Under the pieces are notes generated by a model that searched no databases, was not told the DNA's origin, and saw only the letters and a list, made by a program, of their open reading frames with translations. Below, one piece after another: positions 42,422 through 46,714 of a DNA stretch of 64,000 nt (position 1 is its first letter; each line of letters begins with the position of its first letter). Source of the DNA: Geodermatophilus sabuli (GTDB taxonomy: Bacteria > Actinomycetota > Actinomycetes > Mycobacteriales > Geodermatophilaceae); the NCBI RefSeq assembly GCF_010686765.1, contig NZ_JAAGWF010000009.1, forward strand, positions 186,001-250,000, in the 5' to 3' direction. The position numbers were made by a program, and so were the translations under genes.

Positions 42422-44929
42422 TCAGGTGCGGACGAACAGCCGGCGGTGCGGCGCACCCGGCGCGGCCGACCGGACGCCCGTGCGGGCCAGCAGCCAGCTC
42501 TCCAGCCGCTCGTCGGGCAGCGGCCGGCTGACGAGGAAGCCCTGCAGCTTGTCGCAGCCCATCTCCGCCAGCAGGTTGCGGGTCAGCTCGTCCTCCACGC
42601 CCTCGGCGACGACGCGCAGCCCGAGGTTGTGGGCCAGCTCGATGATCGAGCGGGCGATGAAGGACTCTCCCTGGCTCGTGGACATGCCGAGCACGAAGGA
42701 CTTGTCGATCTTCACCTCGTCGATCGGCAGCTGGCGCAGCTGCGACAGCGAGGAGTAGCCGGTGCCGAAGTCGTCCATCGACAGCCGCAGGCCCAGGGCG
42801 TGCAGATCGGCGAGCACGGTGCTGCTGCGCACCGAGTCGTCGACGACGCTGCCCTCGGTGAGCTCCAGGGTGAGCAGCTCCCCGGGCACGCCGTGCCGCC
42901 GCAGCGCGCGCCGGACGCGGTCGACCAGGTCCGGCTCCGTGAGGCACCGCGCCGAGAGGTTGACCGAGACCGAGAGGGCGATGTCCTGGTCGAGCCACTT
43001 GCGGCACCGGGCGAGCGCGAGGTCGAGGACGTGGTCGGTGAGCAGCCCGATGCGACCGATCTGCTCGGCGAGGTGGATGAAGTCGTCGGGCGCGATCGCG
43101 CCGTAGCGCGGGTGCGCCCACCGGACGAGCGTCTCGACCGAGACGATGTCGGAGGTGCGGGCGTCGATGATGGGCTGGAACACGACGCTGATCTGACCCT
43201 CGGCCATCGCCTGCTCGAGCTCGGTGCCCAGCTGCAGGCGGCGCAGGCTCTGCTGGTCGAGGACCGGGTGGTAGCTGGCCACCCCGCTGGAGCCCGAACC
43301 GGCCAGCAGCGCCACGTCGGCGCGCTGCATGAGCGTGCCGGCGTCGGTGCCGTGGACGGGGGCGGCCGCGACACCGATGGAGAGGGTCACCTCGAGGTCC
43401 AGGCCGGCCACCCGGGCCCGCGTGGAGGTGGCCTCGCGCAGCCGCCGGGCGGCCCGCTCGGTGGCCGCCAGCGACAGGCCCGGCAGGAGGACGGCGAACT
43501 GCTCGCCCTCCATGCGGGCCACCAGGGCCTGCGGCGGGGCGTGCTCGCGGAGCAGTCCGGCCGTCACCAGCAGCAGCTCGTCGCTGGCCGCGTGGCCGAG
43601 GGTGTCGGTCACCTCGGTGTAGTTGTCGAGCGCGGCGAGGATCAGCCCGGCCCTCCCGGCGACCGGGTCGGCCGCGAGCAGCGCGTCGATCTCCACGGCG
43701 AGGCGCTGCCGGTTGGGCAGGCCGGTGAGCCGGTCGTGGTCGGCGTCGTACTTGATCTGGGTCAGCAGCTGCTGTTGCCGGATGGCGGCGTTGACGTGCG
43801 TGAGCATGGAGTCCAGTGCCGCGCGGTCGCCGTCGGCGAAGGACACCACGTCGCTGCGGCGGTCGCAGATCTCCAGGTACCCGGGCTCGCCGGCCGCGGT
43901 CGCCACCGGGGCGGCCAGGAGGTCCTCGGCACCGCGGCGGGCCAGCGCCGCGGCCTCGGCCTCGGTCGCGCGGGCCAGGGAGACCAGCACCGGCCCGTCG
44001 GCCCACCCGTCGGTGGCGCGCCGGCGGATCAGGTCGTCGGGGTCGCCGGGGCCGTCGTACCAGCCGCGGCCGTCGTCGGAGGCGACCACCAGCCGCGGCC
44101 CCTCGTCGAGGTAGGGCGGCAGCCACAGGGCCACCCGGTCGGCGTTGAGCAGCTCCCGCACCGCGTCGACGATCCGGCGGGTGCCGTCCTCGTCGGACCC
44201 GACGTGCTCCACCCGCCGGGCGAACTCGTAGACGAGCACGGGGAGGATCAGCAGCCACGCCCAGGCATGGGACCGGGTGAGCAGGACGGTCGCGACGCCG
44301 GCCGCGACGCTGAGCGGCCCGATGACGAACTGCGGCACGAGGGCGTCGATCCAGAAGCGGCGCCCCAGCCGGCCGTCGGTCAGCGTGATGATCGCGGCGA
44401 CGCACACCGCGGAGACCACGTCGGCGGCCGTGATGGCCACGGCGAGGGCGGCCCAGGTGACCGGCGAGCCGAGGTCGGACTCCGGGAACAGCTGGAGGAC
44501 GGCGACGGCCGCGGTCACCTCGAGGACGGCGAGCGCGACGTTGAAGACCGTCTTGGCCGGCACGTAACGCTGGCGGACGAGGACGACGACGACGGCGGCG
44601 CCGCGTGCGACGGCCGTCCAGAGGCCGCCGATCTCGACCAGGCCGATGACGACGACCAGCTCGATCGGGGTGACCGTGAAGGTCTGGCGACGGACCTCGA
44701 GGTCGAGCTTCACCGACTCGGTGGCCACGAAGGCGACGAACATGGCCAGCACGGCGAGCACCGGCAGCGACGTCCACGCCGACGGCAGCACCAGACCCCC
44801 GAACACGACGGCGGCCACCGCGGTGGAGCCGATCGGGACCCATGGCTGTCGCACGGGCGCGTGCGGCTGCTCGGGCGCCGCGGCCGAGGGCTCGCGGTGC
44901 TCCACAGCTGGAGCCAGGGGCTCGGCCAA
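42422..44929 (-). CDS. Membrane GGDEF-EAL protein, cyclic-di-GMP phosphodiesterase with degenerate GGDEF
   Basis: 835 aa from a TTG at 44929 with only a weak ribosome site; the start is uncertain and a GTG eight codons in is an alternative. About six to eight membrane helices occupy residues 35-235, a GAF-like region 245-385, a GGDEF domain 390-555 and an EAL domain 565-815. The GGDEF signature is EGEQF (474-478), so synthase activity is unlikely. The EAL domain keeps E599 (as ETL), N657, E689/E692, D719-D720, K743, E776 and Q796, so phosphodiesterase activity is expected. The pattern is a membrane c-di-GMP sensor/effector with a regulatory GGDEF. YajQ, a c-di-GMP-binding family, is encoded 2 kb away. 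Confidence 0.85.
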   Translation of the reverse strand: MAEPLAPAVEHREPSAAAPEQPHAPVRQPWVPIGSTAVAAVVFGGLVLPSAWTSLPVLAVLAMFVAFVATESVKLDLEVRRQTFTVTPIELVVVIGLVEIGGLWTAVARGAAVVVVLVRQRYVPAKTVFNVALAVLEVTAAVAVLQLFPESDLGSPVTWAALAVAITAADVVSAVCVAAIITLTDGRLGRRFWIDALVPQFVIGPLSVAAGVATVLLTRSHAWAWLLILPVLVYEFARRVEHVGSDEDGTRRIVDAVRELLNADRVALWLPPYLDEGPRLVVASDDGRGWYDGPGDPDDLIRRRATDGWADGPVLVSLARATEAEAAALARRGAEDLLAAPVATAAGEPGYLEICDRRSDVVSFADGDRAALDSMLTHVNAAIRQQQLLTQIKYDADHDRLTGLPNRQRLAVEIDALLAADPVAGRAGLILAALDNYTEVTDTLGHAASDELLLVTAGLLREHAPPQALVARMEGEQFAVLLPGLSLAATERAARRLREATSTRARVAGLDLEVTLSIGVAAAPVHGTDAGTLMQRADVALLAGSGSSGVASYHPVLDQQSLRRLQLGTELEQAMAEGQISVVFQPIIDARTSDIVSVETLVRWAHPRYGAIAPDDFIHLAEQIGRIGLLTDHVLDLALARCRKWLDQDIALSVSVNLSARCLTEPDLVDRVRRALRRHGVPGELLTLELTEGSVVDDSVRSSTVLADLHALGLRLSMDDFGTGYSSLSQLRQLPIDEVKIDKSFVLGMSTSQGESFIARSIIELAHNLGLRVVAEGVEDELTRNLLAEMGCDKLQGFLVSRPLPDERLESWLLARTGVRSAAPGAPHRRLFVRT

Positions 44930-44940
44930 CGGAACCCTGT

Positions 44941-44975
44941 CTGTTAGGGGGGCGGACGTCGGCCGAGGCTAACAG
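44941..44975. promoter_or_regulatory. Inverted repeat upstream of the GGDEF/EAL gene
   Basis: CTGTTAG (44941-44947) and CTAACAG (44969-44975) are perfect 7-bp half-sites with a 21-nt spacer, 11 nt upstream of the TTG start on the minus strand. This is an operator-like arrangement; the regulator is unknown. Confidence 0.4.
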
Positions 44976-45009
44976 CGCAGGGGGCGGACGCAGTCCCTCC
45001 TCACCCTTC

Positions 45010-45042
45010 GGGGGCAGCCGCCGGAGCCCGGTGGCCGCCCCC
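45010..45042 (-). terminator. Hairpin after the RGNRWS peptide gene
   Basis: GGGGGCAGCC (45010-45019) pairs with GGCCGCCCCC (45033-45042) with one mismatch. It lies 19 nt after the peptide stop on the minus strand, which supports the peptide being a separate short transcript. Confidence 0.5.
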
Positions 45043-45061
45043 GCTCAGGGAGTACCTGCGG

Positions 45062-45154
45062 TCAGCTCCAGCGGTTGCCGCGGCTCCACCGGTTGCCCCG
45101 GCTCCAGCGGTTGCCGCGGGTGGTGGTGGTCGTGGACGTGGTGGTGTGGCTCAT
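45062..45154 (-). CDS. 30-aa repeat peptide, three RGNRWS units
   Basis: Function unknown. The ATG at 45154 is preceded by TGAGGAGGCGTC, a perfect AGGAGG at 4-5 nt. The peptide is Met-Ser-His, nine residues of Thr with one Ser, then RGNRWS three times, then stop. The three 18-nt units differ only at two third positions of Arg codons in the middle unit (CGC to CGG), both silent, which indicates selection on the protein. A Thr-rich leader and a repeated Arg/Asn/Trp core resemble the precursor layout of some modified peptides, but no maturase is encoded nearby. A hairpin follows the stop. A plain small protein, a nucleic-acid-binding peptide or an antimicrobial are alternatives. Confidence 0.7.
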   Translation of the reverse strand: MSHTTTSTTTTTRGNRWSRGNRWSRGNRWS

Positions 45155-45255
45155 GACGCCTCCTCAGGCATGAAGGACCGCTTCGCGTGCGGCAGTCACC
45201 CAGGCGCGGGGGCAGAGCGTCGTTCGGTACGGACCGCGCCCGAGAGATTGCTGCC

Positions 45256-45365
45256 CGTCACCCGATCGGGGCAAGCACCGAAGATCACGACGGAACGGCG
45301 GACCGTCATGCCCTCACGCTCAGTGAGGAGATCTCTCTCTGCGTCACCCGATTGGGTGGCGCGCG
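45256..45365. promoter_or_regulatory. Direct repeats of CGTCACCCGAT(C/T)GGG, possible operators
   Basis: CGTCACCCGATCGGG (45256-45270) and CGTCACCCGATTGGG (45342-45356) are 14/15 identical, 86 nt apart. The second is part of a near palindrome GCGTCACCCGATTGGGTGGCGC. They lie in the divergent region between the peptide gene and the TadE/G-like gene. The binding protein is unknown. Otherwise 45155-45426 contains no gene that I can support. Confidence 0.4.
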
Positions 45366-45426
45366 TGCTCCGGGAGGCGCCAGGGACGCCTGGGACCTGG
45401 CGTGTCCGGCCCCCGCGCGTCGGCCC

Positions 45427-45512
45427 GGGTCCACAGCCGCCACCGCGCGGGTCCGGGGGGCTGCCGGTCGCGTCCACAGCCGTCCACATCCCCCGGTCCA
45501 CAGGTCGTGGAC
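45427..45512 (+). promoter_or_regulatory. Cluster of DnaA-box-like GTCCACA motifs
   Basis: GTCCACA occurs at 45429-45435, 45472-45478, 45482-45488 and 45496-45502, with an inverted GTGGAC at 45507-45512. The actinobacterial DnaA box is TTGTCCACA, and these keep its TCCACA core with weaker first bases. The cluster ends 28 nt before the TadE/G-like gene and runs up to its -10. Confidence 0.45.
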
Positions 45513-45540
45513 GGCCGCGGCCGGCCCCTACGCTGCCCGG

Positions 45541-45969
45541 GTGCACGGGGACGCCCACGGCGAGCGCGGCTCGACACTGCCGCTGGTCCTCGTGTGCTGG
45601 CTGGTGGCGGCACTCATGGCGTTCGGGGCGATCGCGGCCTCCGACGCCTTCCTGGAGCAGCAGCGGGTGCAGTCGGACTGCGACGGCGCGGCGCTCGCGG
45701 CGGCCAACGCCACCGACGAGGCGGCGCTCTACCGCCAGGGGGTCGGGACGACACTGCCGCTCACCCGCGCCAGCACCGCCGCTGCCGTCGCCGACCAGCT
45801 CGCCGACGCCGGGACGCTGCTGGACGCCTGGTCCACCGAGACCGACGGCGTCGAGGTCACGGTGCGGTGCACGCGACAGACCGAGATCGCCTTCGGCTGG
45901 CTGTTCCTCGCCGGCCGGCCGCTGGAGCGCACCGCGCTGGCGAGCGCCCGGGCGCCCACCGGCCCCTGA
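45541..45969 (+). CDS. Small TadE/TadG-like pilus or secretion-associated membrane protein
   Basis: 142 aa from the GTG at 45541, which sits exactly 6 nt after a TACGCT -10 box (45529-45534), the layout of a leaderless mRNA. Residues 9-36 (RGSTLPLVLVCWLVAALMAFGAIAAS) form one N-terminal membrane helix with a Gly-Ser before it, as in TadE/TadG-type pseudopilins. The rest (SDAFLEQQRVQSDCDGAALAAANA and after) resembles the Flp-pilus TadE/G-like or Rv3660-type helicase-linked proteins of actinobacteria. Other tad genes are not in the window. Role in pilus or secretion is by analogy. Confidence 0.65.
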   Translation: MHGDAHGERGSTLPLVLVCWLVAALMAFGAIAASDAFLEQQRVQSDCDGAALAAANATDEAALYRQGVGTTLPLTRASTAAAVADQLADAGTLLDAWSTETDGVEVTVRCTRQTEIAFGWLFLAGRPLERTALASARAPTGP

Positions 45970-45990
45970 GCCACCCGGCCCCGGGACGAG

Positions 45991-46025
45991 GACGGCCCCC
46001 GACCTCGTCGAGGTCGGGGGCCGTC
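45991..46025. terminator. Terminator between the TadE/G-like gene and tRNA-Tyr
   Basis: A perfect 16-bp stem (45991-46006 with 46010-46025) and a 3-nt loop, GACGGCCCCCGACCTC and its complement. It lies between converging genes and can serve both. Confidence 0.8.
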
Positions 46026-46037
46026 GCGTACCGGGTG

Positions 46038-46119
46038 TGGCGGGTGAAGGATTCGAACCTTCGTAGGCTAAGCCGACGGATTTACAGTCCGCTCCCATTG
46101 GCCACTCGGGCAACCCGCC
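46038..46119 (-). tRNA. tyrT: tRNA-Tyr (GTA anticodon)
   Basis: Class II tRNA of 82 nt. Acceptor GGCGGGT/ACCCGCC, anticodon arm GGACT-GTA-AATCC (anticodon GTA), a long variable arm GTCGGCTTAGCCTAC, T arm GAAGG-TTCGAAT-CCTTC and discriminator A. CCA is not encoded. Confidence 0.93.
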
Positions 46120-46222
46120 GTGGTGGTACCGCTGGAGCGTACAAGACGACGGCGACCGGCCTCCCCGGTGTCCCGCACGCGGGGACCGGCAGCCGGCCGG
46201 CCGACGAGAGGAGACACCGGAC

Positions 46223-46714
46223 ATGGCCGACTCGTCCTTCGACGTGGTGAGCAAGGTCGACCGCCAGGAGGTGGACAACGCCCTCAACCAGGCCGCGAAG
46301 GAGCTCTCGCAGCGCTTCGACTTCCGGGGCACCAACGCGACGATCTCCTGGGCCGGCGAGGAGGGCGTCAGCCTCACCGCCGACACCGAGGAGCGGGTGG
46401 CCGCGGCGCTGGAGGTGTTCAAGGAGAAGCTGATCAAGCGCGGCATCTCGCTCAAGGCGCTGGACGCCGACGAGCCGCAGTCCTCCGGCCGCAGCTACAA
46501 GATCTCCGCCCGCATCAAGCAGGGCATCGAGTCGGACAAGGCCAAGCAGATCGCCAAGCTCATCCGGGACGAGGGCCCCAAGGGCGTGCAGGCCCAGATC
46601 CAGGGCGACCAGCTGCGGGTCAGCGGCAAGAAGCGGGACGACCTGCAGGCGGTCCAGCAGCTGCTCAAGGGCGCGGACCTCGACGTCGCCCTGCAGTTCG
46701 ACAACTACCGGTGA
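46223..46714 (+). CDS. yajQ: YajQ/UPF0234 family nucleotide-binding protein
   Basis: Small two-domain protein of the YajQ family. Some members bind cyclic di-GMP and act on transcription, and others bind tRNA or GTP. 163 aa, starting [20 protein letters not shown], with conserved [12 protein letters not shown] and [29 protein letters not shown] (described in parts) and the C-terminal [10 protein letters not shown]. The length matches the family exactly. AGAGGAG precedes the ATG. It is close to the GGDEF/EAL gene, so c-di-GMP signalling is plausible but not shown. Confidence 0.93.

Follow-up and report, generated by a model that had tools for sequence, protein, structure and literature searches.

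A tandem-repeat tryptophan micropeptide gene beside a membrane GGDEF-EAL gene in the Geodermatophilaceae and its possible link to c-di-GMP signalling

The micropeptide gene and its locus

A 64,000-nucleotide stretch of Geodermatophilus sabuli contig NZ_JAAGWF010000009.1 (hereafter the window) carries on its minus strand, at 45062..45154, a 30-residue open reading frame (ORF) made up of a short leading part and three tandem RGNRWS units. The frame begins with an ATG, runs from 45154 to 45062, encodes MSHTTTSTTTTTRGNRWSRGNRWSRGNRWS and stops directly after the third unit, while the Shine-Dalgarno sequence AGGAGG (45159..45164, minus strand) lies four bases 5′ of the ATG in a region kept in relatives. 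The three units read CGC GGC AAC CGC TGG AGC, CGG GGC AAC CGG TGG AGC and CGC GGC AAC CGC TGG AGC, with two silent arginine codons as their sole differences. Re-reading of the sequence agreed with a preliminary description, made from the letters alone, on the AGGAGG, the three hexapeptides followed by a stop, the silent-only unit differences and the presence of a strong GC-rich stem after the stop codon. The peptide has a net charge of +6 and no signal peptide, and searches against Pfam and NCBIfam returned no family above cut-off. In a 519-kb chance control comprising the window and the loci of 57 relatives, frames of the micropeptide gene were the only ones among 4651 ORFs to contain at least three tandem tryptophan (Trp) units; as no other such ORF was found and the gene is conserved in place and in frame in relatives, the repeat is more than chance. 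Judged from its sequence, this ORF is a genuine gene that is very probably translated.

The gene looks like a self-contained transcription unit, consisting of a promoter-like pair, a leader, the ORF, a hairpin and then the −10-like motif of the next gene, all on the minus strand. The −35-like TTGCCC (45269..45274) and the −10-like CAATCT (45245..45250), 18 bases apart, are consensus matches only, and strict −35 and −10 patterns both fit in 45 of the 73 genes of the family, again as motif matches and not mapped ends. Next comes a conserved leader block, GCGCGG...CTCTGCCCCCGCGC (45204..45239), in which sequence is conserved without covariation: five almost unvarying base pairs were recovered by RNAalifold, without any covariation, the 246-nt stretch folded no better than its shuffles (z 0.58), and an Rfam search of 44800-46250 placed a single tRNA, and no leader family, above cut-off. 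Because covariation is absent, the block is called a conserved leader and not a riboswitch, and a known RNA element was rejected on the same ground together with the lack of an Rfam match. A possible small hairpin in the 5′ untranslated region, GACTGC/GCGGTC (45176..45197), was noticed by eye and reads GACAGC/GCTGTC in some relatives; RNAalifold did not recover it. The GC-rich hairpin after the stop codon (45009..45043) is strong and terminator-like with no U run, and is followed by TGTTAGCCT (44966..44974), an extended −10-like motif 5′ of the GGDEF-EAL gene. The pattern TG[TC]TA[GA]C[CG]T occurs within 320 nt downstream of the ORF in 62 of the 73 genes.

The constant downstream neighbour is a membrane GAF-GGDEF-EAL protein (42422..44929, minus strand), in agreement with the adjoining membrane cyclic diguanylate (c-di-GMP) protein of the preliminary description. 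The pilus-like neighbour named there also held up: the ORF at 45541-45966 (plus strand) matches the TadE/G-like family PF13400 at 30.9 bits, against a cut-off of 22.3. Besides this TadE/G-like protein, the flanking ORFs encode an M1-type peptidase, two MaoC-type proteins, rpmG, YajQ (DUF520), an M48 peptidase and an oxoacid:ferredoxin oxidoreductase pair.

Conservation and renewal of the repeat unit

The peptide was found in many genomes of the same genus (protein search, 61 genomes), and the DNA upstream of its gene is conserved over more than 100 bases. When this upstream leader pattern, which is independent of the peptide, was used as a probe on a named genome collection, it gave 58 matches in 57 stretches, 56 of which are titled Geodermatophilus, Blastococcus, Trujillonella, Geodermatophilaceae or Frankiales bacterium. 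In 57 of the 58 matches, an initiation codon preceded by a Shine-Dalgarno sequence follows 45-56 bases on and opens a short ORF of two to five tandem hexapeptides (at least two R...W units being required); the lone match without a repeat ORF is a second leader copy in locus L042. Conservation in close relatives and variation in copy number, both of which the preliminary description had proposed to check, were thus found, with the repeat peptide kept at one locus and its unit number varying between genes, and the frame is kept in these relatives where frame-shifting differences between strains would have told against a coding role. The remaining stretch, L059, is titled UNVERIFIED_ORG Bacillus sp. 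AZ43; it carries a Blastococcus-type gene with the usual neighbours and is probably mislabelled.

A sequence model of the leader matches 102 of 112 genomes of the Geodermatophilaceae, those without a match being eight from the genera g5 and g8 and two draft assemblies that are 70-80% complete. One of the 102 matches, in G034, reaches only E 0.009, and no repeat ORF was found in the stretch examined there. The single g9 genome (G033, locus L243) has the leader followed by one unit only, a C-terminal RTVRWG, which is perhaps a minimal form. Extra leader copies lie about 0.6-2.2 kb from the first in L220 (G003), L222 (G006) and L042/L221 (Geodermatophilus sp. DSM 45219, G013); in two of these genomes the extra copy is followed by an ORF of 70-77 residues with two hydrophobic stretches, and in one no such ORF was found. 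Given these second copies, the leader may be a regulatory element able to be copied. Outside the family, the three-unit pattern was found in 3 + 7 further genomes, mostly as exact or near-exact DNA repeats, and the two matches examined (G615, G706) both fall within long ORFs. A looser repeat pattern, which matched many chance repeats, was rejected and its counts were not used.

Across the 73 genes, length ranges from 18 to 42 residues and the part before the first unit from 3 to 16, varying between species. The family holds 93 distinct peptides and 64 distinct units, with the consensus R-x-x-[KR]-W-[GSTNA], to which there are few exceptions (position 4) and which was widened by stretches missed by the first pattern. 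For the 64-unit set, units were cut at R...W, making R and W fixed by construction; when units were cut at W alone, R was present in 186 of 188. Unit pairs within genes (231 pairs from 58 genes, namely that of the window and 57 others, L140 and L155 not among them) show 400 silent codon differences and only 18 that are non-silent, against an expectation that 23% of single-base changes to unit codons would be silent (calculated over 73 genes that include L140 and L155, both counted with one unit too many in the unit listings, with Trp at position 3). The excess of silent over other differences therefore argues that the peptide is kept by selection, as the preliminary description had reasoned from the three window units, and at the sequence level selection on the amino acids of the peptide is strongly supported. 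At six gene-positions, the identical Ser or Arg of one gene is coded from both codon boxes. Units differ between species yet are nearly always identical within one gene, and in a phylogeny of 59 GGDEF-EAL neighbours the unit tracks species and switches as a block. Some sister genes share position-wise silent signatures (RGTQWG, RGIKWS) and some do not, suggesting that both old units and renewed expansions occur.

The neighbouring enzyme and Trp-motif frames before its homologues

The GAF-GGDEF-EAL gene lies downstream of the repeat gene, on the same strand, in 53 of the 57 named loci, the other four of which stop no more than 0.6 kb from the leader; the 14 stretches of g4 and g6 and the four of g1, g2, g7 and g11 contain it too. 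One g5 assembly without a leader match contains two GGDEF-EAL genes, each with its own repeat ORF (three RNGRWG and three RAGRWG units, respectively), and these twin enzyme-repeat pairs would be the best sign that both genes belong together. The membrane domain of the enzyme (residues 30-240 in the window protein) has no Pfam match, gave no match in a sequence search of the PDB, and has diverged at four times the rate of the catalytic part. It models as the ligand-binding fold of energy-coupling factor (ECF) transporter S-components, scoring well above unrelated comparisons. A coevolution test gave a weak result.

Trp motifs also occur in ORFs that precede some of the enzyme's homologues elsewhere, and the presence of rpmG or YajQ beside the enzyme marks most of these loci as the same locus as that of the window. 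In g8 genomes, for example, Trp pentapeptide repeats (TAWNG, AAWNG) lie upstream of the enzyme in frames that are open at contig ends, the alternative there being a protein that combines a signal-like N-terminus with GVSWN repeats and whose frame has no Shine-Dalgarno sequence that could be found. Other families of the order have DGGSWTFA and VDGNTWTF repeats (family f9), GALWG twice (f7), or ORFs with a hydrophobic N-terminus ending in KWY, SSWT, TWN or VWL, and outside the order GTRWG (twice) and RRWI precede enzyme homologues. This survey set aside antisense or out-of-frame ORFs in known genes (such as those against YajQ in L264 and L259) and a few ORFs with neither a repeat nor a hydrophobic N-terminus (L308, L309, L314). 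At six loci in five genomes the encoded protein belongs to Peptidase_S8 (PF00082, E 3e-32 to 3e-43) and has a tail of Trp repeats such as (GAGWR)n, (GSSWR)n, (GSQWS)n or (GATWS)n. These subtilase genes, found in other actinobacterial families, each immediately precede a GGDEF-EAL gene (L271, L272, L273, L274, L268 and L289), and as rpmG was seen nearby only in G045, most of them lie beside other copies of the enzyme.

A penultimate Trp occurs in 15 of the 53 ORFs that have a Shine-Dalgarno sequence and lie in the 650 nt upstream of the enzyme, compared with 0 of 23 on the opposite strand (Fisher p 0.0035). Of 40 loci, the count covers the 37 that include 250 nt or more of upstream sequence; because a Shine-Dalgarno sequence was required, the subtilases of L262, L269 and L305 do not appear in it. 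Two of the 15, in L299 (16 residues) and L300 (50 residues), do not satisfy the remaining criteria and could be chance occurrences; the ORF of L312 (43 residues) is doubtful. One scoring round covered four candidates per genome. Taken together, the Trp-motif peptides and proteases before the enzyme in some other bacteria suggest an unrecognised peptide signal.

Possible roles of the peptide

Our tentatively favoured explanation is that a multi-copy Trp-x peptide regulates the neighbouring c-di-GMP enzyme, with each unit as its ligand or partner. The self-contained gene would yield a short basic peptide bearing two to five identical copies of R-x-x-[KR]-W-x, of which the single unit, presumably after release, would be the working entity; this unit would bind the N-terminal ECF-S-like membrane domain of the adjoining GGDEF-EAL enzyme and so set c-di-GMP turnover, although the peptide, which has no signal sequence, may work from within the cell instead. 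The gene itself, its conservation, selection on its amino acids, the concerted change of units, the pairing with the enzyme and the Trp-motif ORFs elsewhere are the sequence basis of this proposal, and we infer that the peptide is translated in the cell. Several points weigh against it. The window peptide has no secretion signal, hydrophobic N-termini being found in some upstream ORFs of other families; the penultimate-Trp feature was chosen post hoc, after the loci had been inspected, and by the strict criterion is missing at 24 of the 37 loci; and the g5 assembly with twin pairs is a draft with 5% contamination, so that two strains are possibly mixed in it.

A more specific form of this explanation, which we regard as somewhat unlikely, is a bacterial multi-copy peptide signal wired to c-di-GMP, in which an ECF-S-fold membrane domain, fused to GGDEF-EAL, reads tandem Trp-x units. 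These would be supplied either by bare micropeptides, as in the Geodermatophilaceae and two other families, or by the tails of subtilases, which could themselves cut the units loose. The unit, we propose, is identical within a gene yet drifts between species because it must fit one fast-evolving receptor, and each species would thereby get its own peptide. Tandem identical units in one short precursor are indeed found, while for proteolytic release the Trp-tailed subtilases of five other genomes are a hint only.

Known systems resemble parts of this arrangement. Kex2 belongs to the subtilisin family, a parallel to the subtilase nature of the Trp-repeat proteins before enzyme homologues. Fungal Kex2-processed repeat proteins and yeast alpha-factor precursors contain tandem, near-identical short units that are highly diverse between species (PMC7329392), an architecture like that of the window gene, for which no membership is claimed; the fungal precursors have a signal peptide and Kex2 sites, whereas the window peptide is bacterial, has no signal peptide and lies beside a c-di-GMP enzyme. 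With ECF transporter S-components the likeness is in fold only, as the domain here is fused to GAF-GGDEF-EAL and shares 5-14% sequence identity with them. Pairs of a peptide pheromone and a membrane receptor, such as AgrD/AgrC and ComX/ComP, likewise combine the gene of a small peptide with an adjoining, rapidly evolving membrane protein, but their output is a histidine kinase, whereas the present locus has a GGDEF-EAL protein, tandem copies and no processing enzyme seen at the family locus. No such peptide beside a GGDEF-EAL gene was found in the literature searched, which included few subscription papers. The gene is unusual already in its sequence, with a unit that is replaced in concert between species and held identical within each gene amid silent change, and it is kept through most of the Geodermatophilaceae. 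If the explanation is true, it would reveal the signal sensed by one group of membrane GGDEF-EAL proteins, a peptide feeding directly into c-di-GMP, and as Geodermatophilaceae switch between motile and clustered forms, there would be an obvious use for such a signal.

Alternatively, the product could be an intracellular multivalent peptide, a basic Trp/Arg repeat whose binding partner would be RNA, DNA, anionic lipid or the enzyme's cytoplasmic part, the repeats serving avidity without cutting or export. The charge of +6, the missing signal peptide, the lack of Asp or Glu in 46 of the 73 family peptides and the variable number of units (2-5) are all consistent with this. However, avidity does not demand identity within a gene at positions 2, 3 and 6, which change between species, and acidic repeats (DGNTWTF) and ORFs with hydrophobic N-termini precede enzyme homologues elsewhere; we consider such a role unlikely.

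Leader peptides of Trp attenuators are short ORFs with Trp codons followed by a hairpin before the regulated gene, and the micropeptide gene shares this layout, being directly upstream of the GGDEF-EAL gene on the same strand, with a Trp codon in each unit and a strong hairpin between. Ribosome movement over the Trp/Arg codons would then decide whether transcription stops at the hairpin or continues into the enzyme gene. In contrast to known attenuators, the Trp codons are spaced by six, the next gene does not serve Trp synthesis and a promoter-like motif precedes it; as this −10-like sequence, a motif match only, follows the ORF in most family genes, the enzyme may have its own promoter. Residues irrelevant to stalling are moreover kept identical within genes, and elsewhere the upstream gene encodes a secreted-type protease or an exported-looking protein; we regard attenuation as decidedly improbable.

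Modification of the identical tandem cores by an enzyme encoded elsewhere would make the peptide the precursor of a multi-core ribosomally synthesised and post-translationally modified peptide, whether a radical S-adenosylmethionine (radical-SAM) cyclophane with W-x-R links or another kind; the preliminary description had inferred a radical-SAM link. Triceptides share the repeated aromatic core, and the triceptide enzyme XncB, a SPASM enzyme, links Trp to the Arg or Asn two residues on (PMC11002830), which the W-x-R between units would fit. In 16 of the 73 genes, however, a single residue follows the last Trp, so that there is no i+2 partner at that position. As already described, the window encodes no radical-SAM maturase, CX3CX2C being absent from all frames of at least 150 residues, and none of the flanking window ORFs scanned matches a modifying enzyme; at the loci of the 57 relatives, 4 of the 1468 long frames contain the motif, no two of them in one locus. 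A genome-wide search for SPASM radical-SAM enzymes, enzymes without SPASM lying outside it, returned a single match, which scores as the TIGR03962 mycofactocin maturase and is MftC beside the chaperone MftB (L162, 2308-3965). SPASM matches occur in 36 of 37 family genomes, their identity being established for the window genome's only. No conserved leader part for enzyme recognition was found before the first unit. The cyclophane link is thus not supported, and a modified product of any kind is very improbable. That the ORF is a functionless remnant of a subtilase Trp-repeat tail, or incidental to an RNA gene, is scarcely credible given the 400 silent against 18 other differences and an ORF kept at 57 of 58 leader matches, even though Trp-repeat tails precede enzyme homologues, the leader is strongly conserved and three genomes have an extra leader copy without a repeat ORF.

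For genes too short for the usual gene callers, a Trp second from the C-terminus ahead of a GGDEF-EAL gene provides a search handle. Two other frames were noted during the survey: L279 (G462) encodes, upstream of an enzyme homologue, a protein whose N-terminus is signal-like and whose (GASLT)n repeats contain no Trp, and L245 (G145) contains, at 2003-2365, a 120-residue ORF rich in HHWKKR, HRWDN and similar His-Trp repeats.
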